From assembly GCA_019510335.1 (NCBI GenBank), contig JAEKKO010000108.1:1-34885 (forward strand): DNA of 34,885 nucleotides, written 5' to 3'. The translations under genes were made by a program, and so were the position numbers. Every line of letters starts with the position of its first letter. Position 1 is the first letter of the stretch. The DNA comes from Novosphingobium sp. (GTDB lineage: Bacteria > Pseudomonadota > Alphaproteobacteria > Sphingomonadales > Sphingomonadaceae). The notes beneath the pieces are model-generated. The model made no database searches. It saw nothing but the letters and a program-made list of their open reading frames with translations, and was not told the origin of the DNA. This document shows positions 7,010 through 34,885 of the stretch, piece by piece.

Positions 7010-7987
7010 CTAGGGAAGCAGCACGGTCGAGCCGGTCGTCTTGCGCGCTTCGAGGTCACGGTGGGCCTGGGCGGCTTGCTCCAGCGGGTAGGTCTGGCCG
7101 ATGTTCACCTGTATCTTGCCTTCGCGCAGCATCGCGAACAGCCGCGCGGCTCCGGCGCGGCGTTCATCGGCGCCGACGTAGTAGTCAAACAGCGTCGGCC
7201 GGGTGACGTAGAGAGAGCCGTGGGCCGAAAGCACGCCCAGAATGACCCCGGTCACCGGACCGCTGGCATTGCCATAGCTGACGATCAGGCCGCGGCGGCG
7301 GGTGCTGGCGAGCGAGCTCTGCCAGGTCGCCGCGCCGACGCCGTCGTAAGTGACGGCGACGCCGGCTCCGCCGCTCGCCTCGCGCACCTTTGCCGCCAGC
7401 TCGGGATCGTCGGTGCGCAGCACCAGCTCGGCCCCGGCGTCGCGCGCGAGCGCCTCCTTGGGTGCGCTGCCGACGGTGCCGATGACCTTGACGCCGAGCG
7501 CGGTCAGCCACTGCACCAGCAGTTGCCCGACGCCGCCGGAGGCGGCGTGGACCATGACCCAGTCGCCGGCCGCGGGCCTGGCCGCACGTTCGGCGAGGAA
7601 TTCGGCGGTGCAGCCCTTGAGCAGCACGGCGGCGGCAGTCCTCGCGTCGAGGTCGTCGGGCAGCGGAATCAGCTGTTTGGCCGGGACCAGCCGCGCCGTC
7701 GCATAAGCTCCGCGAGCCGGACCGAATGTGCCAACCCGGTCGCCGGGGGCGAAGCCGACGACGTCGGGTCCGACCGCCTCGACCACGCCCGCCGCTTCGG
7801 TGCCGAGCGGCGCTGGCAGCTCGACCGGATAGACCCCGCTGCGGTGGTAGGCGTCGATAAAGTTGAGCCCGACGGCCTCGTTGCGGACCAGCACTTCGCC
7901 CGGACCCGGCCGGTCGAGATCGACGTCGCGCCAGTGGATCACCTCGGGGCCGCCGGTCTGCTCGATAATCGCCTGTCGTGCCTTCAT
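7010..7987 (-). CDS. Quinone oxidoreductase (zeta-crystallin-like MDR)
   Basis: MKARQAIIEQTGGPEVIHWRDVDLDRPGPGEVLVRNEAVGLNFIDAYHRSGVYP...AASGGVGQLLVQW; start placed at complement 7985-7987 rather than the longer ORF start at 8152. Confidence 0.92.
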   Translation of the reverse strand: MKARQAIIEQTGGPEVIHWRDVDLDRPGPGEVLVRNEAVGLNFIDAYHRSGVYPVELPAPLGTEAAGVVEAVGPDVVGFAPGDRVGTFGPARGAYATARLVPAKQLIPLPDDLDARTAAAVLLKGCTAEFLAERAARPAAGDWVMVHAASGGVGQLLVQWLTALGVKVIGTVGSAPKEALARDAGAELVLRTDDPELAAKVREASGGAGVAVTYDGVGAATWQSSLASTRRRGLIVSYGNASGPVTGVILGVLSAHGSLYVTRPTLFDYYVGADERRAGAARLFAMLREGKIQVNIGQTYPLEQAAQAHRDLEARKTTGSTVLLP

Positions 7988-24340: not shown

Positions 24341-25321
24341 ATGGCCATTCGCACCCGCGTTACCGAGATGCTCGGGATCGAGCACCCGATCGTCCAGGGT
24401 GGGATGCAGGGCGTCGGCTATGCCGAACTGGCGAGTGCCGTCTCCAATGCCGGCGGACTCGGCATCCTCACCGCCCTGACCCAGCCGAGCCCGGCCAAGC
24501 TGCGCGAGGAGATCGAGCGCTGCCGGTCGATGACGGACAAGCCGTTCGCGGTGAACATCACCGTCCTGCCGACGATCCTCCCGCCCGACTACAAGGGCTA
24601 TGCCCAGGCCGCGATCGACGGCGGGATCAAGATCGTCGAGACCGCCGGCACCCAGGAGGTGCGCGAGATCTGGGAGATGATGAAGCCGCACGGGATCAAG
24701 ATCCTCCACAAGTGCACGGCCGTGCGCCACGCGCTCTCGGCCGAGCGCGGCGGCTGCGACATCATCTCGATCGACGGCTTCGAGTGCGCCGGCCATCCCG
24801 GCGAGGACGACATCCCGGGCCTGATCCTGATCCCCCGGGCGGCCGACCAGGTGAAGATCCCGATGGTCGCCAGCGGCGGCTTCGGCGACGGCCGCGGCCT
24901 CGTCGCGGCGCTCGCGCTTGGGGCCGACGGAATCAACATGGGCACTCGGTTCTGCGCCACGCAGGAGGCGCCGATCCATGCCAACGTCAAACAGAAGTAC
25001 GTCGATAACGACGAGCGCGGGACCAACCTGATCTTCCGCAGGTTCAAGAACACCGCGCGCGTCGGCAAGAACGAGGTGTCGGACAAAGTGGTCGAAATCT
25101 CGGCCCGACCCGATGCGACATTCGAGGACATCCGCCCTTACGTCGCCGGAGCCGCCGGGCGCGAAGTGCTGGAGACGGGCGATCTCGGCAAGGGCATCTT
25201 CTGGGCCGGCATGGTCCAGGGCCTCATCCACGACATCCCCACTGTCCAGGAGCTGATCGAGCGGATCATGGGCGAGGCCGAAGAGATCATTTCCGGCCGC
25301 CTCGCCGGTATGATGCGCTAG
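24341..25321 (+). CDS. Nitronate monooxygenase family (NAD(P)H-dependent flavin oxidoreductase / 2-nitropropane dioxygenase-like)
   Basis: MAIRTRVTEMLGIEHPIVQGGMQGVGYAELASAVSNAGGLGILTALTQ...IVETAGTQ...SIDGFECAGHPGEDD...VASGGFGDGRGLVAALALGADGINMGTRF. Confidence 0.92.
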   Translation: MAIRTRVTEMLGIEHPIVQGGMQGVGYAELASAVSNAGGLGILTALTQPSPAKLREEIERCRSMTDKPFAVNITVLPTILPPDYKGYAQAAIDGGIKIVETAGTQEVREIWEMMKPHGIKILHKCTAVRHALSAERGGCDIISIDGFECAGHPGEDDIPGLILIPRAADQVKIPMVASGGFGDGRGLVAALALGADGINMGTRFCATQEAPIHANVKQKYVDNDERGTNLIFRRFKNTARVGKNEVSDKVVEISARPDATFEDIRPYVAGAAGREVLETGDLGKGIFWAGMVQGLIHDIPTVQELIERIMGEAEEIISGRLAGMMR

Positions 25322-25331
25322 GGCGCCGACG

Positions 25332-26114
25332 ATGGACTACACCAAGGTCACGTATGCGCTCGACGACGGCGTGGCGCGGATCGGGCTCAACGATCCCGAG
25401 CAGCTCAACGCGGTCAGTGAGGAGATGGGCGGGCAGCTGCTCGCGGCGGTCCAGCGCGCCGCGGACGAGGCGCGCGCGGTGGTCCTTACCGGCGAGGGCC
25501 GAGCGTTCTGTTCGGGCGCGAGCCTGCGCGACTGCGGCCTCGACCTGGCGCAGCCGAACCGCGACATCGGCCTGCTGCTCGAGCGGTTCTACAACCCGGT
25601 GCTGGCGACAATCCGCAAGATGGACGCCCCGGTGATCACCGCCGTGCGCGGAGCGGCGGCCGGTTTCGGCGCCGGGCTGGCGCTGTCGGGCGACCTCATC
25701 GTTTGCGCCGAGAACGCCTACTTCATCCAGGCCTTCCGCCACGTCGGCCTGGCCCCCGACGGCGGCTCGTCGTACCTGCTGAGCCGGGCGATCGGGCGCG
25801 TTCGGGCGATGGAGCTGATGCTGCTGGGTGAGCGGCTCGCTGCCGACAAGGCGCTCGACTGGGGGCTGGTCAACCGCGTCGTCCCCGACGCCGAGCTCGA
25901 TGCGACGGCGATGGCGCTGGCCGCCAACCTCGCCAGTGGGCCGGCCTCGATCGGCATCATCAAGCAAGTCGCCTGGGCGGCGCTGGACGCGGCCTACGAC
26001 ACTGCGCTGGCGCTCGAGCGCGACGCCCAGCGCAGCGCCAGCCGCAGCGAGGACTTTCTCGAGGGCATCGCGGCGTTCCAGGAGAAGCGCAAGCCGAGCT
26101 TCTCCGGCCGCTGA
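25332..26114 (+). CDS. Enoyl-CoA hydratase/isomerase family protein
   Basis: VVLTGEGRAFCSGASLRD...MDAPVITAVRGAAAGFGAGLALSGDLIVCAENAYFIQAFRHVGLAPDGGSSYLLSRAIG. Confidence 0.93.
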   Translation: MDYTKVTYALDDGVARIGLNDPEQLNAVSEEMGGQLLAAVQRAADEARAVVLTGEGRAFCSGASLRDCGLDLAQPNRDIGLLLERFYNPVLATIRKMDAPVITAVRGAAAGFGAGLALSGDLIVCAENAYFIQAFRHVGLAPDGGSSYLLSRAIGRVRAMELMLLGERLAADKALDWGLVNRVVPDAELDATAMALAANLASGPASIGIIKQVAWAALDAAYDTALALERDAQRSASRSEDFLEGIAAFQEKRKPSFSGR

Positions 26115-26183
26115 GCGCGCTCGTGGCAGGGGATCCCGGCCCCGCCATTGCCAAGCGCCCATGATGCAGTGCACAATCGGCTG

Positions 26184-26762
26184 ATGCGCATCGCCATCGT
26201 CGACGAAAGCGCCGCGCGCGCCTCGATCATCCAGGAGGGGCTCGCCGACTTCCGCGATTGCGAGATCTTCATCGTCACTGAGCGCCGGGGCCTCGTCGCC
26301 CGGATCGCCGAGATCGGCCCCGAGATCGTCCTCATGGACTTGGGCAATCCCTCCCGCGACGTGCTTGAGGAATACTTCGCGGTGAGCCGCGTCCTGGCCC
26401 GGCCGATCGCCATGTTCGTCGACGAGAGCGATGCCGAATCGATCGCCGCATCGGTCGACGCGGGGGTTTCGGCCTACGTCGTCGACGGACTGGCGCCGCA
26501 CCGAATCAAGCCTTTGCTCGACTTGGCCGTGCGGCGCTTCAACGCCTTCTCGCGCCTCCAGACCGACCTCGCCGAAGCCAAGGGCAAGCTTGCGGAACGC
26601 GACGCGATCGACCGCGCCAAGCGCATCCTGATGAACAGCCGCGGCCTCGCCGAGCCCGAGGCCTATGCCGAGTTGCGGCGCACGGCGATGAACCAGAACC
26701 GGCGGATCGCCGAGATCGCCGACGCGGTGATCACAGCGCACAAGCTGATCGGAGGGGACTGA
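26184..26762 (+). CDS. nasT: NasT-type ANTAR-domain RNA-binding response regulator
   Basis: MRIAIVDESAARASIIQEGL...PEIVLMDLGNPSRDVLEEY...; C-terminal ANTAR AKRILMNSRGLAEPEAYAELRRTAMNQNRRIAEIADAVITAHKL; followed directly by nasS. Confidence 0.93.
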   Translation: MRIAIVDESAARASIIQEGLADFRDCEIFIVTERRGLVARIAEIGPEIVLMDLGNPSRDVLEEYFAVSRVLARPIAMFVDESDAESIAASVDAGVSAYVVDGLAPHRIKPLLDLAVRRFNAFSRLQTDLAEAKGKLAERDAIDRAKRILMNSRGLAEPEAYAELRRTAMNQNRRIAEIADAVITAHKLIGGD

Positions 26763-27971
26763 ATGCCGCACGAGTTGACGATCGGCTTCCTCCCGCTGGT
26801 CGACGCCTGTCTGCCGATCCTCGCCCACGAGCACGGCTTCGCCGCCGCCGAGGGCGTCAGCTTGCGCTTCGTCAAGGACATGAGCTGGGCGACGGTGCTC
26901 GACCGCCTGCTCTATGGCCACACCGATGCCGCACACCTGATCGCCCCGCTGGCGATCGCCGTGACGCTGGGGCGTGGGCGGCCGGCGCAGCCGCTGGCGG
27001 TGCCGTTCGTGCTTGGGCTCAACGGCAATGCGGTGACGATGCGGCCGGAGCTGGCCCAAGCCATCGGTACGCCTGGCTGTCTCGCCGATCCGGTCAGGGC
27101 GGGCGCGGCCCTGGCCCGCATCGCCGCCGAACGCCGCGATGCAGGCAGGCCGCTGCGGTTCGGCGTGGTCCACCGCTACTCTAGCCACAACTACATGCTG
27201 CGCTATTGGCTGGCCGGCTGCGGCATTCGCCCCGACCACGATGCCGACTTCGTCACGGTCCCGCCGCCGTTCTGCGCTGATGCGCTCGAGACGGGCGAGG
27301 TCGACGGCATCTGCGTGGGCGAGCCGTGGAACAGTGTCGCGGTCGAGCGCGGGGTGGGCGAGATCGTCCTCGCCACCGCGCAAATCTGGCGCCGCGGGGT
27401 CGAGAAGGTGCTGGCGCTGCGCGAGCCGGTCCTCACCGCCCGGCGCGAGGCGGTGGAAGCGCTGATCCGCGCGCTGGTTTGCGCGGGGCGGCATTTCGTC
27501 GATCCGGCGAACTGGGACGAGAACGCGGCGATCCTCGCCCGCAGCGAATACGTCGGCGGCTCGGCCGAGCTGATCCGCCGCGCGATCTCCGACCGGCTGC
27601 TGCTCGCGCGCGGCGGGGAGGTCGTGCATTTCCCCGATTTCATGTTCCAGTATCGCGAGGCGGCGAACTTCCCGTGGGTCAGCCAGGCCGAGTGGCTCTA
27701 CACCCAGATGGTCCGCTGGGAGGGCCCGCAGCTCGATTCGCGCGATGCCGCGAGGGCCGCGCGGGTGTTCCGTCCCGACGTTTACCGCAGTGCACTCATG
27801 GGCACCGACGAGCCGCTCCCCGGAGCCAGCTCGAAGGTCGAAGGGAGCCTTGCCGGGACCACCGCCGTGGGCACCCAGCAGGGACGCATGACCTTGGAAA
27901 GCAACCGTTTCTTTGACGGCGGAGTGTTCGACCCGGCCGACCTCGAAGGGTACCTGCGGCGCCACCCCTGA
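26763..27971 (+). CDS. nasS: NasS-type nitrate/nitrite sensor (NrtA/CmpA-like periplasmic-binding fold, no signal peptide seen)
   Basis: MPHELTIGFLPLVDACLPILAHEHGFAAAEGVSLRFVKDMSWATVLDRLLYGHTDAAHLIAPLAIAVTLG...EVDGICVGEPWNSVAVERGVG; adjacent to nasT. Confidence 0.92.
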   Translation: MPHELTIGFLPLVDACLPILAHEHGFAAAEGVSLRFVKDMSWATVLDRLLYGHTDAAHLIAPLAIAVTLGRGRPAQPLAVPFVLGLNGNAVTMRPELAQAIGTPGCLADPVRAGAALARIAAERRDAGRPLRFGVVHRYSSHNYMLRYWLAGCGIRPDHDADFVTVPPPFCADALETGEVDGICVGEPWNSVAVERGVGEIVLATAQIWRRGVEKVLALREPVLTARREAVEALIRALVCAGRHFVDPANWDENAAILARSEYVGGSAELIRRAISDRLLLARGGEVVHFPDFMFQYREAANFPWVSQAEWLYTQMVRWEGPQLDSRDAARAARVFRPDVYRSALMGTDEPLPGASSKVEGSLAGTTAVGTQQGRMTLESNRFFDGGVFDPADLEGYLRRHP

Positions 27972-27983
27972 GCCAACCATTTT

Positions 27984-28157
27984 TGCTGCGTTGCAAAAAC
28001 TACTTTACCGCCCTGCAGCAATCGCGCTAGTCATCCCCCAGCAGCGACAGCGCAGCCCAGTGGTGGGGTGCATCCCAGCGGTCCTGTGAACACGAACATT
28101 GCGTGGCAACGACGCCGCCTGATCTGGTCCTCATGACCATGTCGAGGCGGCTTTTTT
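27984..28157 (+). promoter_or_regulatory. Candidate NasT/ANTAR-responsive leader 1 (operator-like 17-mer, AnnGnn hexaloop hairpin, terminator)
   Basis: TGCTGCGTTGCAAAAAC 27984-28000; hairpin GCAGCCC[AGTGGT]GGGGTGC 28052-28071 (hexaloop A1/G4; one G-G mismatch in stem); GCGTGGCAACGACGCCGCC 28101-28119; terminator 28114-28157. Confidence 0.72.
28114..28157 (+). terminator. Rho-independent terminator of leader 1
   Basis: GCCGCCT (28114-28120) pairs with AGGCGGC (28145-28151), inner TGGTC-CTCAT-GACCA helix, then TTTTTT (28152-28157). Confidence 0.85.
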
Positions 28158-28199
28158 GCGTGCGCGTCTGGAGCACCCGTCCCGATGGGCGACGTACGG

Positions 28200-29903
28200 T
28201 CAGCGCAGCAGCACGGAAGCGGCGAGAGCCGCTGCCAGCAGAGCGCTGACGATTTGCCAAAACGCTATCGGATTGCGCTCGATCAGCGGCACCGGCCGGC
28301 GCGGCCCGACCGCGCGGGCGCCGCCGCCCTCGAGCGCGCGGAGCAGCTCGATGACGTCGCCGAAGCGCGCCTCGCGGTCGGGCTGCAGGGTGGTGAGGAT
28401 GGCCGCATCGAGCCAGCTCGGGATCTCCGGACGATGGCGCGAGGGCGGCACCAGCTTGCCGAAGCGCGGCCGCTGGAACGCTTCGTGCTCGCCGAACGGT
28501 GCCTTGCCGGTGAACCAGCGGTAAAGCGTGACGCCGAGCGCGAACTGGTCGGTCGTGGCGTCGCCGGCGTTTCCGTCGAACTGTTCGGGCGCCATGTAGC
28601 CGGGCGTGCCGGGGATCTCGTCAGGGCGGAAATCCTCGGCCCGCGGCAACCGCGCGACGCCCAGATCGATCAGCTTGAGCCCGCCATCGGCGGTCAGCAT
28701 GACGTTGTCGGGCTTGATGTCGCGGTGTACGACGTCGAGCCGATGCAGCGCGGCGACCGCGCGGGTCAGGCGGATTGCTTGCTCGATTCCCGGGCGCAAG
28801 CCTGGAGCCCCGCGCTCCAGCCGCTCGCTCATCGTCTCGCCGTCGAGCAGCGGCAGCACGGCGTACAGGGCGGTTTGGCGGTCGGGCCGGACCGGGTGCG
28901 CGGCGAGCACGAACGGACTGCTGACGCGCTGGGCGATGAGCATCTCGCGGGCGAACGCCAGGCACATGGCGCGCTCGCTGAGCGCCTCGCGTCGCGGGAA
29001 CTTGAGCACCACGCGACTGCCGTCCTCGCCGTCGGTCGCGACGAGCAGCTCCGCGTTACGGCCGCGGCTGAGCACGCGGTCGATTACGAAGCCGTCGATG
29101 GTCTGACCCGGACGCGGCGGATCGGCGGGGGGAAGGCCGGAAAGCCCCGAAAGAATGCCGTCGTGATCGGGCGCGGGCAGGCGGACGACGTCGACCACCA
29201 CGGCGGTGGCGTTGTCGTGCGTGCCGGCGGCGATGGCGGCGTCGGCGAGCATTTCGGCAGTCGCCTCGGCGCTCGCGGCCTCGCGCAGGATCGCGGCAAT
29301 GCGTGCGGGGGAGAGCACCCCGTGAACGCCGTCGCTGGTCAGCAGCAGGCGGTCGTGCTCGGCCACTTCGATGGTGGCATGGTCGAGCCGCAACTCGGGC
29401 TCGAGCCCGAGGGCGCGGATCAGCACGTGGCGCAGGTCGGGCTCGGGCCGAACATGGTCGATCGTCAGGCAGGTCAGCCGGTCCCCGGTGAAGCGCCACG
29501 CGCGGCTGTCGCCGACGTGGACGAGATGACCGCGCCGGCCGCGCAGCGCGAGCGCGGTGAACGTCGTCGCGCTGTTGGCCATCGTCTCGCCACGGCCCTG
29601 CGCGTGCAGCCAGCGATTGTAGGCGGCGAGTGGGGCCTGCATCGCCCGCGCCGCCCCGAGCGTGTCCGGCATCGCGTAGAATCCCTCGATCAGCGCCCGC
29701 ACCGCGAGCTCGGCCGCCGTGCGTCCGGCTTTGCCGCCGCTGACCCCGTCGGCAACCGCCGCGATCACGCCATGCCGTGCCCGCTCGTTCGGGCTGCCGA
29801 GATGGACCCCGCCGAAATCCTGGTTCTCCGGGCGCGGGCCGGTGCGGCTCGCGAAGCCCGCCGCCACCACCAGCTCGCCTGCCTCGCGCATCGTCTCGTC
29901 CAT
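28200..29903 (-). CDS. Bifunctional PP2C-type phosphatase / Ser-Thr protein kinase with C-terminal TM segment
   Basis: PP2C: ENQDFGGVHL, AVADGVSGGKAG, LLTSDGVHG, THDNATAVVV; kinase: VVLKFPRREA, VVHRDIKPDNVML, LIDLGVARL, GTPGYMAPEQF; C-term FWQIVSALLAAALAASVLLR. Confidence 0.93.
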   Translation of the reverse strand: MDETMREAGELVVAAGFASRTGPRPENQDFGGVHLGSPNERARHGVIAAVADGVSGGKAGRTAAELAVRALIEGFYAMPDTLGAARAMQAPLAAYNRWLHAQGRGETMANSATTFTALALRGRRGHLVHVGDSRAWRFTGDRLTCLTIDHVRPEPDLRHVLIRALGLEPELRLDHATIEVAEHDRLLLTSDGVHGVLSPARIAAILREAASAEATAEMLADAAIAAGTHDNATAVVVDVVRLPAPDHDGILSGLSGLPPADPPRPGQTIDGFVIDRVLSRGRNAELLVATDGEDGSRVVLKFPRREALSERAMCLAFAREMLIAQRVSSPFVLAAHPVRPDRQTALYAVLPLLDGETMSERLERGAPGLRPGIEQAIRLTRAVAALHRLDVVHRDIKPDNVMLTADGGLKLIDLGVARLPRAEDFRPDEIPGTPGYMAPEQFDGNAGDATTDQFALGVTLYRWFTGKAPFGEHEAFQRPRFGKLVPPSRHRPEIPSWLDAAILTTLQPDREARFGDVIELLRALEGGGARAVGPRRPVPLIERNPIAFWQIVSALLAAALAASVLLR

Positions 29904-29983
29904 CCCGTTCGCGCAGGCGCCACGCCCGCCCGCACGAGGATTGGCTTCCCTTCCGCCACGTCAAGTCCAAGGAGGACCTGAGC

Positions 29984-31243
29984 ATGAACTCGCTTGCCAT
30001 GACTGCAGGGAGCGCGCCGATGTCCGGCAGTTCCGCCAAATCGAGCTTCTGGAAGGCCGGGCACCGCCCGACCCTCATCGCCGCATTTCTCTATTTCGAC
30101 GTCTCGTTTATGGTCTGGGTGATGCTCGGCCCCCTGGCGCCGATCATCTCCAAGCAGCTCGGGCTCGACCCGGGCCAGAAGGGCCTGATGGTCGCCGTTC
30201 CGACCCTCGCCGGGGCATTCCTGCGGATCGTCAACGGACTGCTGGTCGATCGAATCGGCACCAAGCTGACCGGGACAATCAACCAGCTGATCGTCATCGC
30301 CGGTCTCGCCTATGCGTGGCGCTTCGGCATCTCGAGCTTCGAGGGAACGCTCGCCGTCGGCGTGGTGCTCGGTTTCGCGGGAGCGAGTTTCGCAGTCGCA
30401 TTGCCGCTGGCCAGCCGCTGGTATGGACCGGAGCACCAGGGCAAGGCCATGGGCATCGCCGGCATGGGCAATTCGGGCACGGTGTTCGCCGCCCTGTTCG
30501 CCGCAATGCTGGCCAAAGCTTATGGCTGGACCAATGTGTTCGGGCTGGCGCTGATCCCGCTGGTGGCGAACCTCGCCTATTACCTGATCGCGGCCAAGGA
30601 CAGCCCCGAGCAGCCCGCGCCCAAGCCGCTATCGGCGTACGCCAGCGTGCTCAAGGAAGGCGATTCGTGGTGGTTCATGCTGTTTTACGGCGTGACCTTC
30701 GGCGGCTTTGTCGGGCTCTCGAGCTCGCTGCCGACGTACTTCGCCGACACCTTCAAGCTGACTCCGGTGCTGGCCGGCTACTGCACCGCGGCGTGCGTCT
30801 TCACCGGATCGATGCTGCGGCCGATCGGCGGCGCGCTCGCCGACCGGCTCGGCGGCATCCGCACGCTGATGTTCGTCTATGTCATCGCCGCGGTGGTGCT
30901 GGCGGCGATCGCCACCGGTCCGAGTGCACTGCCAATCGCCATTGCCTTATTCGTAGTCGTGATGGGCACGCTCGGCGCGGGTAACGGCGCGGTGTTCCAG
31001 CTAGTGCCGCAGCGCTTCCGCAAGGAGATCGGAGTGATGACCGGTCTCGTCGGCTTCGGCGGCGGGGTCGGCGGGTTCTACCTCGCCTCCTCGCTCGGAT
31101 ACGCCAAGAAGCTCACCGGCAGCACTTCGCTCGGCTTCCTGATCTTCGCCGGGCTGGCGGTGATCGCGCTGATTGGCTTGTCGGTGGTCAAGGGCCGCTG
31201 GCGGACCACTTGGGGCGCCGCGCTCCAGGGCGCCCGCATCTGA
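29984..31243 (+). CDS. MFS nitrate/nitrite transporter, NarK/NasA family
   Basis: FLYFDVSFMVWVMLGPLAPIISKQLGLDPGQKGLMVAVPTLAGAFLRIVNGLLVDRIG...LGFAGASFAVALPLASRWYGPEHQGKAMGIAGMGNSGTVFAALFAAMLA; ATG 29984 after AAGGAGG RBS. Confidence 0.93.
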   Translation: MNSLAMTAGSAPMSGSSAKSSFWKAGHRPTLIAAFLYFDVSFMVWVMLGPLAPIISKQLGLDPGQKGLMVAVPTLAGAFLRIVNGLLVDRIGTKLTGTINQLIVIAGLAYAWRFGISSFEGTLAVGVVLGFAGASFAVALPLASRWYGPEHQGKAMGIAGMGNSGTVFAALFAAMLAKAYGWTNVFGLALIPLVANLAYYLIAAKDSPEQPAPKPLSAYASVLKEGDSWWFMLFYGVTFGGFVGLSSSLPTYFADTFKLTPVLAGYCTAACVFTGSMLRPIGGALADRLGGIRTLMFVYVIAAVVLAAIATGPSALPIAIALFVVVMGTLGAGNGAVFQLVPQRFRKEIGVMTGLVGFGGGVGGFYLASSLGYAKKLTGSTSLGFLIFAGLAVIALIGLSVVKGRWRTTWGAALQGARI

Positions 31244-31255
31244 CGATTGCATGAT

Positions 31256-31276
31256 GGGGCGGGCATGGCCCGCCCC
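31256..31276 (+). terminator. GC-rich 9-bp hairpin after narK-type gene (no T-tract)
   Basis: GGGGCGGGC-ATG-GCCCGCCCC, starting 12 nt after the stop at 31243. Confidence 0.4.
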
Positions 31277-31351
31277 CAATTGGCGGCCGCCAAGAGCCGC
31301 ATCGGGTGAGCACCTGCGAGGACGACTCGAACCGTCCAGGGAAAACACATC

Positions 31352-32638
31352 ATGAGGACCAAGTTGCTGCTCGCCGGCGCCGCCATGGCCGCGCCGCTCG
31401 CTCTCGCTCACCCCGCGCTTGCCGCACCCGCGCCAAAGTGGGGCGATCCGGTCGCGGTCGGCGACGGCTTCACTATCGACCCGATCATCGACGCTCGCTT
31501 GCGCTACGAGCACGTCGACCAGCCGACCGTTGACGCCGACGCGGTGACGCTGCGGCTCCGGGTGGGAGCCGAGGTCCGGCACGCGCCGTCGCACCTCGGC
31601 TTGCTCGCCGAAGCCGAGGCGACGCTGGCGCTCGACGATCACTACAACGCCTTTCCGTACGTGGTGGCGAGCCGACAGCGGCGGCCGCAATACGCGACGA
31701 TTGCCGACCCGATGAATGTCGAGCTCAATCGGCTGCAGCTGCAGTACAAGACCAAGCAGCTCACGCTGACCGTCGGCCGCCAGCGGATCAATCTCGACGA
31801 CCAGCGCTGGGTCGGCAACGCTGGCTGGCGCCAGAACGAGCAGACCTTCGATGCGGCGCGGGCCGAGGCGAAGATCGGGCCGGTTGCCCTCGACGGGACT
31901 TACGCGATTAGCCAGCGCACGATCTACGGCATCGACGGCGGCCCGCGCCGAGCGTTCGACGGCAATTTCGTGTTCCTCGGCGCCGGCACCAAGTTGGGGC
32001 CGCTGCAGGTCAAGGGCTTCGCCTACCTGCTCGACTACGACGCGCAGGAGCAGCTCGGCGCCCTGGCCATCCCCAACGCCGACACCCAGACCTATGGCGT
32101 GCGCGCGACCGAGAGCTTCCCGCTAGCGCCCAAGCTCAAGCTGAACGTCATGGCGAGCTATGCCCGCCAGTCCGACTACAAGAACAACCCGCTCCACTAC
32201 GGCGCCGACTACATCGCCGGCGAGGCGGGGCTCGCCTATCTCGGCTGGGGGCTGACTGGCGGCTACGAGAAGCTCGGCAGCGCCCTAGCCACGGGCGGGG
32301 TCCGTCGGGCGCTGCAGACGCCGATGGCGACGCTGCACAAGTTTAACGGCTGGGCCGACGTGTTCCTGACCACCCCGAACAACGGTCTGCAGGACATGTA
32401 TGTATCGCTCGGCAAGAAGTTCGACGGGGTGAAGGCGCTGCCGGGGCTCAACGCCACGGTCACCTGGCACCGCTTCGACAGCGACTTCGGCTCGACTCGC
32501 TACGGCGACGAGTGGGACGCCAGCGTCGGCTTCAAGCTAGGCAAAGTCGCGGTGCTGGCGAAGTACGCCGACTATTCGGCGAGCACCTTCGGCGTCGATA
32601 CCAAGAAGTTCTGGCTCCAAGGCGAGGTGAGCTTCTGA
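31352..32638 (+). CDS. Alginate export (AlgE-like) family outer-membrane porin
   Basis: MRTKLLLAGAAMAAPLALAHPALA signal peptide; FTIDPIIDARLRYEHVDQP...LNRLQLQYKTKQLTLTVGRQRINLDDQRWVGNAGWRQNEQTFDA...; C-terminal GEVSF aromatic end. Confidence 0.88.
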   Translation: MRTKLLLAGAAMAAPLALAHPALAAPAPKWGDPVAVGDGFTIDPIIDARLRYEHVDQPTVDADAVTLRLRVGAEVRHAPSHLGLLAEAEATLALDDHYNAFPYVVASRQRRPQYATIADPMNVELNRLQLQYKTKQLTLTVGRQRINLDDQRWVGNAGWRQNEQTFDAARAEAKIGPVALDGTYAISQRTIYGIDGGPRRAFDGNFVFLGAGTKLGPLQVKGFAYLLDYDAQEQLGALAIPNADTQTYGVRATESFPLAPKLKLNVMASYARQSDYKNNPLHYGADYIAGEAGLAYLGWGLTGGYEKLGSALATGGVRRALQTPMATLHKFNGWADVFLTTPNNGLQDMYVSLGKKFDGVKALPGLNATVTWHRFDSDFGSTRYGDEWDASVGFKLGKVAVLAKYADYSASTFGVDTKKFWLQGEVSF

Positions 32639-32644
32639 GCCGGC

Positions 32645-32672
32645 GCTCCCCTCCGCCGGCGCGGAGGGGAGC
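32645..32672 (+). terminator. Perfect 12-bp stem hairpin after the porin gene
   Basis: GCTCCCCTCCGC-CGGC-GCGGAGGGGAGC, 6 nt after stop 32638; followed by ACCTTTCG (weak T content). Confidence 0.6.
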
Positions 32673-32694
32673 ACCTTTCGCGGTGGACTGATTA

Positions 32695-32871
32695 TGCTGC
32701 ACTGCAAAAACCGGCTTGCCAGCCGCGCCTCGAATCGGTTACAGGTCGGTCCAGCAGAGCCCTGCGCCGTCCAACGATGGGCGAGAAAGCGCGCTCCGCC
32801 GACAGCTTGACATCGCGTGGCAACGAAGCCGCCCGTTCCGGTCTATCCGACCGGCTCGAGGCGGCTTTTTT
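32695..32871 (+). promoter_or_regulatory. Candidate NasT/ANTAR-responsive leader 2, upstream of nirB
   Basis: TGCTGCACTGCAAAAAC 32695-32711; hairpin CGTCC[AACGAT]GGGCG 32768-32783 (hexaloop A1/G4); GCGTGGCAACGAAGCCGCC 32815-32833; terminator 32828-32871. Confidence 0.78.
32828..32871 (+). terminator. Rho-independent terminator of leader 2 (attenuator before nirB)
   Basis: GCCGCC (32828-32833) / GGCGGC (32860-32865), inner CCGGTC-TATCC-GACCGG helix, T6 32866-32871; 22 nt before the nirB ATG. Confidence 0.88.
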
Positions 32872-32893
32872 GTTGCGCGCAACGGAGGATCGG

Positions 32894-34885
32894 ATGAACG
32901 CCCCGATGCATTTCAGGGACTTGGCCGCCGGATCGCAGACGCGCGAAAGGCTGGTGGTGATCGGCAACGGCATGGCCGGCTGCCGCGCGGTCGAGGAAAT
33001 CCTCGCCCGCGACGCCGGCCGCTTCGCAGTGACCATCTTCGGCGCCGAGCCGCGGGTGAACTACAACCGTATCATGCTCTCGCCGGTGCTCGCCGGTGAG
33101 AAGGCGTTCGACGACATCGTCATCAATTCGGCCGAGTGGTACGCGGCGAATGGGATCACTCTGGTGGCGGGCGATCCGGTCGTCCACATCGATCGCGCGA
33201 CGCAGAGCGTCGTCTCGCGCTCCGGCCGGGTCGAGCCTTACGATCGGCTGCTGATCGCGACCGGTTCCGATCCGTTCATCATTCCGGTGCCCGGCAAGGA
33301 TCTCCCCGGGGTCGTCACCTTCCGAGATCTCGACGACGTCGATCGGATGCTCGCCGCGGCCGAGAAGGGCGGCGACGCGGTGGTCATCGGCGGCGGGCTG
33401 CTCGGGCTCGAGGCGGCGCACGGCCTGGCCTTGCGAGGGATGACAGTCACAGTCATTCACCTGATGCCGACGCTGATGGAGCGCCAGCTCGACGAGGCCG
33501 CCGGGTGGCTGCTCAAGGCCGAACTCGAGCGGCGCGGTCAGACGATACTGACCGCCGCCGACACCCACGAGATCATCGCCAGGGACGGCCACGTCGCCGG
33601 CGTGCGGCTCAAGGACGGACGCGAGATCGCGGCCGACATCGTCGTCATGGCGGTCGGCATCCGGCCCAACACCACACTCGCCAAGGCCGCCGGCCTCGCG
33701 GTCGAGCGCGGCATCCTGGTCGACGACCACATGGTCACCTCCGACCCGGCGATCCTCGCCGTCGGCGAGTGTGTCCAGCACCGCGGGGCCTGCTACGGCT
33801 TGGTCGCGCCGCTGTGGGAAATGTGCCGGGCGCTGGCCGACCACGCCACCGGCGAGCCGACCGGCTACGCCGGCTCGGTGACCTCGACCAAGCTCAAGGT
33901 CTCGGGCATCGACGTGTTCTCGGCCGGCGACTTCTCCGGCGGCGAGGGCGCCGAGGACATCGTAATGCGCGACGCCGCCCGCGGCATCTACAAGCGGGTG
34001 GTCGTCCGCGACGACAGGTTGGTCGGCGCCGTGCTCTACGGCGATACCGGCGACGGCAACTGGTACTTCGACCTGCTGCGCAAGGGCGAGGACATCGCGC
34101 CGATCCGCGAGGCGCTGATCTTCGGCCAGGCTTTCGCGCTCGGAGGAGCGCTTGCGGACCCTAATGCCGCCGTTGCCGCCCTCTCGGAGGATGCAGAAAT
34201 CTGCGGCTGCAACGGCGTCTCCAAAGGAACCGTGGTCAAGGCGATCGCCGGCGGCGCCTGCAGCCTCGATGCGGTGCGCTCGAATTGCAAGGCATCGGCA
34301 AGCTGCGGCTCGTGCACGGGGCTGGTCGAAAGTCTGCTGGCGCTGACGCTCGGCGAGGGCGTCCAGCAAAAGGCGAAGACGCTGTGCAAGTGCACCAGCT
34401 TCACCCATGACGACGTCCGCCGCCTGATCCTCGAGAAGAGCCTGAAGGCGATCCCGCAGGTGCTGCAGGAGCTGCACTGGTCGACGCCCGACGGCTGCGC
34501 CTCGTGCCGGCCGGCGCTCAATTACTACCTGCTGTGCGCGTGGCCCGGCGAATACGAGGACGACCAGAAGAGCCGCTTCGTGAACGAGCGGATGCACGCA
34601 AACATCCAGAAGGACGGGACGTATTCGGTCGTGCCGCGGATGTGGGGCGGGCTGACCAACCCGCGCGAGCTGCGCGCGATCGCCGACGTGGTCGAGAAGT
34701 TCAACGCGCCGATGGTCAAGGTCACCGGCGGGCAGCGGCTCGACATCTTCGGCATTCGCAAGGAGGACCTGCCGGCGGTGTGGGCCGACCTCAACGCCGC
34801 CGGGATGGTCTCGGGCCATGCCTATGGCAAGAGCCTGCGCACGGTGAAGACCTGCGTCGGCTCTGAATGGTGCCGCTTCGGCACG
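32894..34885 (+). CDS. nirB: Assimilatory nitrite reductase (NAD(P)H) large subunit, 3' truncated by window end
   Basis: MNAPMHFRDLAAGSQTRERLVVIGNGMAGCRAVEEIL...PRVNYNRIMLSPVLAGE...VIGGGLLGLEAAHGLALRGM...ICGCNGVSKGTVVKAI...NCKASASCGSCTGLVE...TVKTCVGSEWCRFGT; RBS GGAGGAT. Absent from the supplied ORF track because no stop occurs before the window end. Confidence 0.95.
   Translation, partial: MNAPMHFRDLAAGSQTRERLVVIGNGMAGCRAVEEILARDAGRFAVTIFGAEPRVNYNRIMLSPVLAGEKAFDDIVINSAEWYAANGITLVAGDPVVHIDRATQSVVSRSGRVEPYDRLLIATGSDPFIIPVPGKDLPGVVTFRDLDDVDRMLAAAEKGGDAVVIGGGLLGLEAAHGLALRGMTVTVIHLMPTLMERQLDEAAGWLLKAELERRGQTILTAADTHEIIARDGHVAGVRLKDGREIAADIVVMAVGIRPNTTLAKAAGLAVERGILVDDHMVTSDPAILAVGECVQHRGACYGLVAPLWEMCRALADHATGEPTGYAGSVTSTKLKVSGIDVFSAGDFSGGEGAEDIVMRDAARGIYKRVVVRDDRLVGAVLYGDTGDGNWYFDLLRKGEDIAPIREALIFGQAFALGGALADPNAAVAALSEDAEICGCNGVSKGTVVKAIAGGACSLDAVRSNCKASASCGSCTGLVESLLALTLGEGVQQKAKTLCKCTSFTHDDVRRLILEKSLKAIPQVLQELHWSTPDGCASCRPALNYYLLCAWPGEYEDDQKSRFVNERMHANIQKDGTYSVVPRMWGGLTNPRELRAIADVVEKFNAPMVKVTGGQRLDIFGIRKEDLPAVWADLNAAGMVSGHAYGKSLRTVKTCVGSEWCRFGT

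Follow-up and report, generated by a model that had tools for sequence, protein, structure and literature searches.

In the stretch of Novosphingobium DNA analyzed here, 34,885 nucleotides in length and referred to as the window, the transporter gene narK very probably belongs to a noncontiguous operon that is controlled by NasT and has an antisense interior open to translation. Judged from sequence comparison, a nitrate RNA switch seems to reach narK by way of polymerase and ribosomes that cross a kinase gene backward, and this kinase gene seems to have been kept free of backward stop codons over dozens of species to permit the crossing. The original prediction had proposed a noncontiguous operon in which the nasTS transcript is extended through a leader, antisense across the kinase gene, and into narK. 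The operon as such is strongly supported by comparative genomics (an intact leader, a covarying hairpin P1, and an open route). Its transcript, however, probably starts at the leader's own promoter and not only by readthrough from nasTS. Moreover, the antisense segment, rather than being untranslated, constitutes a translatable open reading frame coupled to narK.

Gene Order in the Window and in Related Genomes

The window stems from a MAG that is 81% complete and comprises 395 contigs. Its genes follow the order nasT, nasS, PP2C/Ser-Thr kinase, narK, porin, and nirB, with all but the kinase gene on the plus strand. The ANTAR antiterminator NasT is encoded by an ORF starting from TTG (26148..26762; PF03861, E 3e-17) and the nitrate/nitrite sensor NasS by the adjoining gene (26763..27971; NMT1_2, E 5e-62). 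Domain and family matches confirm the predicted placement of a bifunctional PP2C phosphatase/Ser-Thr kinase (PP2C_2 and Pkinase) on the minus strand at 28200..29903 and of narK, a nitrate/nitrite MFS transporter (TIGR00886, E 1e-84), on the plus strand at 29984..31243. Downstream follow an outer-membrane porin of the Alginate_exp family (31352..32638; PF13372 and synteny), which is likely on the same transcript as narK, and nirB (32894..34885; TIGR02374), which runs off the window. Two leaders are present, leader 1 behind nasS and leader 2 in front of nirB. The earlier reading of narK as the first plus-strand coding sequence after the leader missed an ORF of 598 codons (28185..29981, plus strand), which is antisense, in register, to the whole kinase gene and ends with TGA at 29979-29981. 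We refer to it as aORF. Elsewhere in the window, ARAGORN reported a tRNA-Gly of 96 nt (7475-7570, minus strand) at a site of overlapping long ORFs; this may be a false positive.

Loci across the genus, with gene boundaries set by tblastn matches, were assigned to classes A to D by their gene order. Class D, without a kinase gene, reads nasT-nasS-leader 1-nrtABC-porin-leader 2-nirB. Class A, to which the window belongs, reads nasT-nasS-leader 1-[inverted kinase]-narK-porin-leader 2-nirB; an opposite-strand gene lies inside the operon, and leader 1 is aimed at the 3' end of the kinase gene in every locus examined. In the 11 genomes of class B, narK and the kinase gene form the same head-to-head pair, which here lies upstream of nasT in the reverse orientation. 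The module was moved and inverted to the other side of nasTS, with leader hairpins, aORF, and narK still together. Class C is characterized by a distant kinase (approximately 35% identity), which is co-directional and located before nirB.

In L193 and L194, a porin gene precedes aORF, upstream of the kinase 3' end, and the porin stop and aORF start overlap in TGATG; one strand here appears to carry an uninterrupted series of porin, aORF, and narK, with the kinase gene hidden on the opposite one. L123 carries a leader right before nirB and, further on and on the opposite strand, a separate porin with its own leader. L226 (an Azospirillum plasmid) and L231 show a head-to-head kinase-narK pair with spacers of about 400 bp, no antisense stops, and an aORF that falls short of narK, a layout that possibly represents an earlier stage of the arrangement.

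Leader 1 as a Candidate NasT-Type Element

A leader with a hexaloop hairpin and a T6 terminator had been described behind nasS, and both features were recovered on the plus strand. Hairpin P2 (GTGGC-AACGAC-GCCGC, 28103..28118), with GGC-AACGAC-GCC as its core, overlaps GCCGCC...GGCGGCTTTTTT, the intrinsic terminator at 28114..28157, whose T6 run occupies 28152-28157. Approximately 45 nt before P2 lies a further hairpin, P1 (28056..28067), with the hexaloop AGTGGT; both hexaloops carry A1 and G4. Leader 1 is kept in 21/21 compared class A loci. Across these 21 leaders, P1 pairing holds in 95% of cells, compared to 75% in shuffles and 33-49% in slid controls, compensatory changes are seen in four of the six pairs, and unguided consensus folding recovers the same P1 hairpin. 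P2, in the form GGC-AACGNN-GCC, is nearly invariant in class A and overlaps the terminator. A single further copy of the 70-base leader element was found in the genome of the window, before nirB and with 79% identity. This leader 2 likewise comprises a dyad, a promoter-like module, P1, P2, and a terminator (32695..32871, plus strand). An Rfam search of the window returned no family, neither at the gathering threshold nor at E 1.

These features largely follow those of known ANTAR leaders. Two hexaloops with A1 and G4 are present, with G1 in a minority of P1 loops, and P2 is exclusive with the intrinsic terminator in class A, whereas class B pairs the Shine-Dalgarno (SD) sequence and AUG instead. 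The linker between P1 and P2 of leader 1 is longer, about 30 nt versus 5-12 nt in eut (PMC3369931). We interpret leader 1 as a putative NasT-type element, for which NasT binding and antitermination are predicted.

Upstream of the hairpins, a promoter-like module is present (27984..28029, plus strand). In the relatives, its conserved form, composed of TGCTGCNNTGCAAAAA, CTT(T/G)(A/C)C (e.g., CTTTAC), about 10 nt, and CGAATCGSTTA, precedes almost all copies of leaders 1 and 2. The dyad TGCTGCNNTGCAAAAA is located 5' of both leaders (27984-27999 and 32695-32710 in the window). Before leader 1 of the window the dyad reads TGCTGCGTTGCAAAAA, followed by the -35-like CTTTAC (28003-28008) and the -10-like CAATCGCGCTA (28019-28029), which has diverged from CGAATCGSTTA. 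This leader scores poorly with the leader-promoter position matrix because its -10 half is shifted or diverged. A sigma70 consensus scan over 26000-34885 gave one promoter match, which corresponds to chance level. On the plus strand between 28158 and 29983, no terminator-like site was detected by a scan that also missed the leader terminator, the loop of which is too long. In relatives, a TGC-rich motif resembling the dyad occurs just upstream of nasT.

Leader 1 had alternatively been regarded as a regulated 3' end of nasTS or as a relic left by inversion of the kinase gene. A promoter-like module of its own, situated between nasS and the leader, argues against a mere 3' end. The relic reading is rejected, since none of the class A loci examined has lost an intact leader 1, and its P1 covaries. 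Given the conserved promoter-like module, the covarying P1, and the near-invariant P2, leader 1 probably makes its own RNA from its own promoter and is not a decayed remnant.

In class B, the interval from nasT to the kinase 3' end contains, on the narK strand, CTTGCA...CGAATCGGCAT, P1, P2, an SD sequence, and the start of aORF. The stem of the P1 hexaloop varies in sequence between lineages with its pairing retained, and P2 reads GGC-AATGGC-GCC. No T-run was found in this element, and in most loci the P2 region is predicted to base-pair with the SD sequence and AUG of aORF. Hence the class B element appears to control the start of translation, not termination. If aORF were not translated, it would be difficult to account for a nitrate element that has no target nearby other than the start of aORF.

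Depletion of Antisense Stop Codons in the Kinase Gene

An in-register stop codon on the antisense strand corresponds to TTA, CTA, or TCA on the sense strand, and none of these codons occurs in the kinase gene of the window. In the window alone, the open aORF proves nothing, because an ORF of 897 codons antisense to ECH-nasT-nasS (25287-27980, minus strand) is open as well; the evidence is comparative. We attribute this longer ORF to chance at high GC, because nasT and nasS of the relatives do have antisense stops.

Among 27,739 kinase codons from 50 other genomes of about 20 genera, a single TTA/CTA/TCA codon was counted, compared to approximately 81 (81.4) expected (Fisher OR 0.011, p 1.9e-30, with p-values that overstate independence in related species). 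Synonymous sites of the kinase genes are highly diverged (4-fold divergence 0.45). Class A kinases (n=20) contain one such codon where 37 were predicted from same-locus neighbors, and class B kinases (n=11) contain none where 14 were predicted; both tests are exploratory. The test on 19 kinases of the family from other genera was predicted beforehand, and 19/19 showed zero, including one at GC3 0.66. The exception to stop avoidance is L172, a class A MAG in which an antisense stop is present. GC content is not the cause, because other A-ending codons (CCA, ACA, GCA, GTA, GGA, and CGA) are used in the kinase genes at or above the frequency of their neighbors. Seven class C kinases of the same genus, co-directional before nirB, yielded an OR of 1.02, and three homologues with co-directional narK an OR of 1.15; these controls rule out the notion that an antisense ORF is to be expected in every GC-rich gene. 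Comparison across genomes strongly supports a route from leader 1 to narK that has been held open by selection.

Start Signals, Junction, and Spacer

Both ends of aORF carry conserved signals. In the window, an SD sequence GGAG is located at 28170..28173 (plus strand). Under a strict rule, an SD sequence with ATG or GTG after the leader was found in the aORF frame of 15/21 class A loci (other frames, 0 and 1) and 8/11 class B loci (other frames, 0 and 0); the test is weak in the family set, with 7/14 versus 3 and 4. At the downstream end, the window reads TGA-gc-ATG, i.e., the aORF stop lies 2 nt before the narK start codon, and the narK SD sequence AGGAGG (29970..29975, plus strand) resides within the aORF tail. 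The aORF stop falls at -5..+10 of the narK ATG in 38/48 loci, as opposed to 2/48 and 5/48 for the other frames, and at -5..+40 in 47/48. The commonest junction is an ATGA overlap, which is present in nearly all other-genera loci with narK. Exceptions are seven loci with a shifted frame (stops at +8 to +38) and L192, which uses the third frame. The spacer between kinase gene and narK ranges from about 62 to 185 nt, but it keeps one frame in 41/49 loci and 25 of the 31 distinct lengths.

As had been stated, the 80-bp spacer of the window contains no leader. The blocks CGTCAAG and GAGGATC are conserved across class A spacers and look like the kinase gene's own -35 and -10; the candidate kinase promoter in the window (29937..29964, minus strand) is composed of TTGACG (29964-29959), 16 nt, and AATCCT (29942-29937). 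Class A spacers, e.g., that of L163, also contain a conserved GGGC-ACGTC-GCCC hairpin in the putative 5' UTR of the kinase gene.

Protein or Passage, and Alternative Explanations

The start signals and the stop-free frame conserved in about 20 genera could also mean that aORF encodes a functional, selected protein, forming with the kinase a NasT-controlled antisense gene pair with full overlap, and E. coli offers known examples of genes that overlap in antisense (PMC7103648). We consider this unlikely. The aORF product has no match in Pfam or NCBIfam, and AlphaFold2 gave no structure from a 26-sequence alignment (mean pLDDT 27). Divergence at 4-fold sites of the kinase gene (0.449) is comparable to that of nasS (0.495) and narK (0.404), so no constraint on the residues of aORF is apparent; purifying selection on the protein was not detected, nor does synonymous-site conservation along the kinase gene show a peak marking a constrained antisense protein or a hidden narK promoter. 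From these observations, selection on aORF seems to act on openness and junction rather than on residues, and aORF seems to be a passage for ribosomes, not kept for its protein product. It is reasonably probable that the protein is irrelevant altogether and that aORF serves as an antisense conduit, with conserved frame, start signals, and junction, that joins an RNA switch to a distant gene across an opposing gene and allows either the transporter or the kinase to be expressed, but not both.

Alternatively, narK could be transcribed from its own promoter within the 80-bp spacer, with leader 1 ending transcription or serving another purpose. This reading could draw on the conserved spacer blocks and on the head-to-head homologues outside the family with their spacers of about 400 bp and uncoupled aORF. 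Since these blocks read as -35 and -10 on the kinase strand, the leader-promoter matrix finds no match in narK spacer or kinase gene, the kinase 5' end lacks synonymous-site constraint, and stop avoidance and junction would be left unexplained, we rate this explanation as rather improbable, slightly below the protein-coding one. The promoter-like module, the intrinsic terminator, and the lack of an adjoining annotated sense gene would also suit an independent decoy RNA that captures NasT in the manner of the eut ANTAR sponges; an SD sequence and start codon behind the terminator, the conserved aORF, and a class B version that has no T-run and pairs with the SD sequence and AUG of aORF make this very improbable. 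Least credible is a codon-usage accident of GC-rich kinases with an antisense frame devoid of any role. Long antisense ORFs are common in the window, and TTA, CTA, and TCA are likewise absent from 36/144 other genes with 500 or more codons, but the normal use of other A-ending codons, the undepleted class C and co-directional homologues, the narK junction, the frame of the spacer, and the zero count even at GC3 0.66 leave next to no room for it.

Proposed Mechanism and Significance

The preferred reading, a noncontiguous operon under NasT control, would operate as follows. RNA synthesis would start at the promoter just behind nasS, and without nitrate the leader 1 RNA would end at the T6 terminator. 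On nitrate, NasS would free NasT, in line with the chemistry described for NasS and NasT (PMC3795266), and NasT would hold the hexaloop hairpins P1 and P2 such that the terminator is blocked. RNA polymerase could then run on over the kinase gene on its antisense strand. Ribosomes loading at the SD sequence and start codon past the leader would translate aORF, shield the long RNA from Rho-type termination, and be brought to narK, whose start codon adjoins or overlaps the aORF stop. Opposing transcription and the RNA itself would lower kinase expression. Sequence comparison shows the parts used in the steps up to the blocked terminator, as well as conservation of the stop-free frame, its start signals, and the narK junction; we infer readthrough, translation in vivo, protection from Rho, and kinase repression.

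If this holds true, bacterial operons are able to run across a gene of opposite orientation over evolutionary time, and they do so by molding the codons of that gene such that ribosomes can follow the polymerase. This would explain how long antisense transcripts possibly escape Rho, and it would make a single switch out of the nitrate sensor, the transporter, and the protein kinase. Missing TTA/CTA/TCA codons together with a coupled junction provide a simple signature for finding other hidden operons, and annotation rules that drop antisense ORFs can hide regulatory wiring.

Comparison with Known Systems

Leader 1 resembles known ANTAR/NasT leaders, i.e., the Paracoccus NasT-nasA system (PMC3795266) and the dual-hexaloop motif (PMC3369931), in its two hexaloops with A1 and G4, a second hairpin that overlaps the terminator, and adjoining nasTS and nitrate genes. 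It differs in its longer linker and in a downstream frame that is antisense to another gene, and the class B element appears to control translation start. The E. coli gene pop, 603 bp and antisense to ompA (PMC7103648), is likewise a translatable reading frame that lies antisense within a conserved gene. In comparison, aORF is about three times longer, widely conserved, and followed by a coupled gene, with no sign of protein selection. As in an excludon (PMC7154746), the opposed transcripts possibly repress each other, where repression of the kinase is our deduction. Noncontiguous operons are already known, as exemplified by menE-menC-MW1733-ytkD-MW1731 of S. aureus (reviewed in PMC7154746), in which an opposite-strand gene also interrupts the operon and which the predicted narK mRNA would match by crossing that gene antisense. 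Unlike the S. aureus operon, the arrangement described here is placed under a nitrate leader and has been conserved across about 20 genera, and its antisense stretch, described in S. aureus as an internal untranslated region (PMC7154746), is a stop-free and translatable ORF that has start signals and is coupled to narK at the junction.
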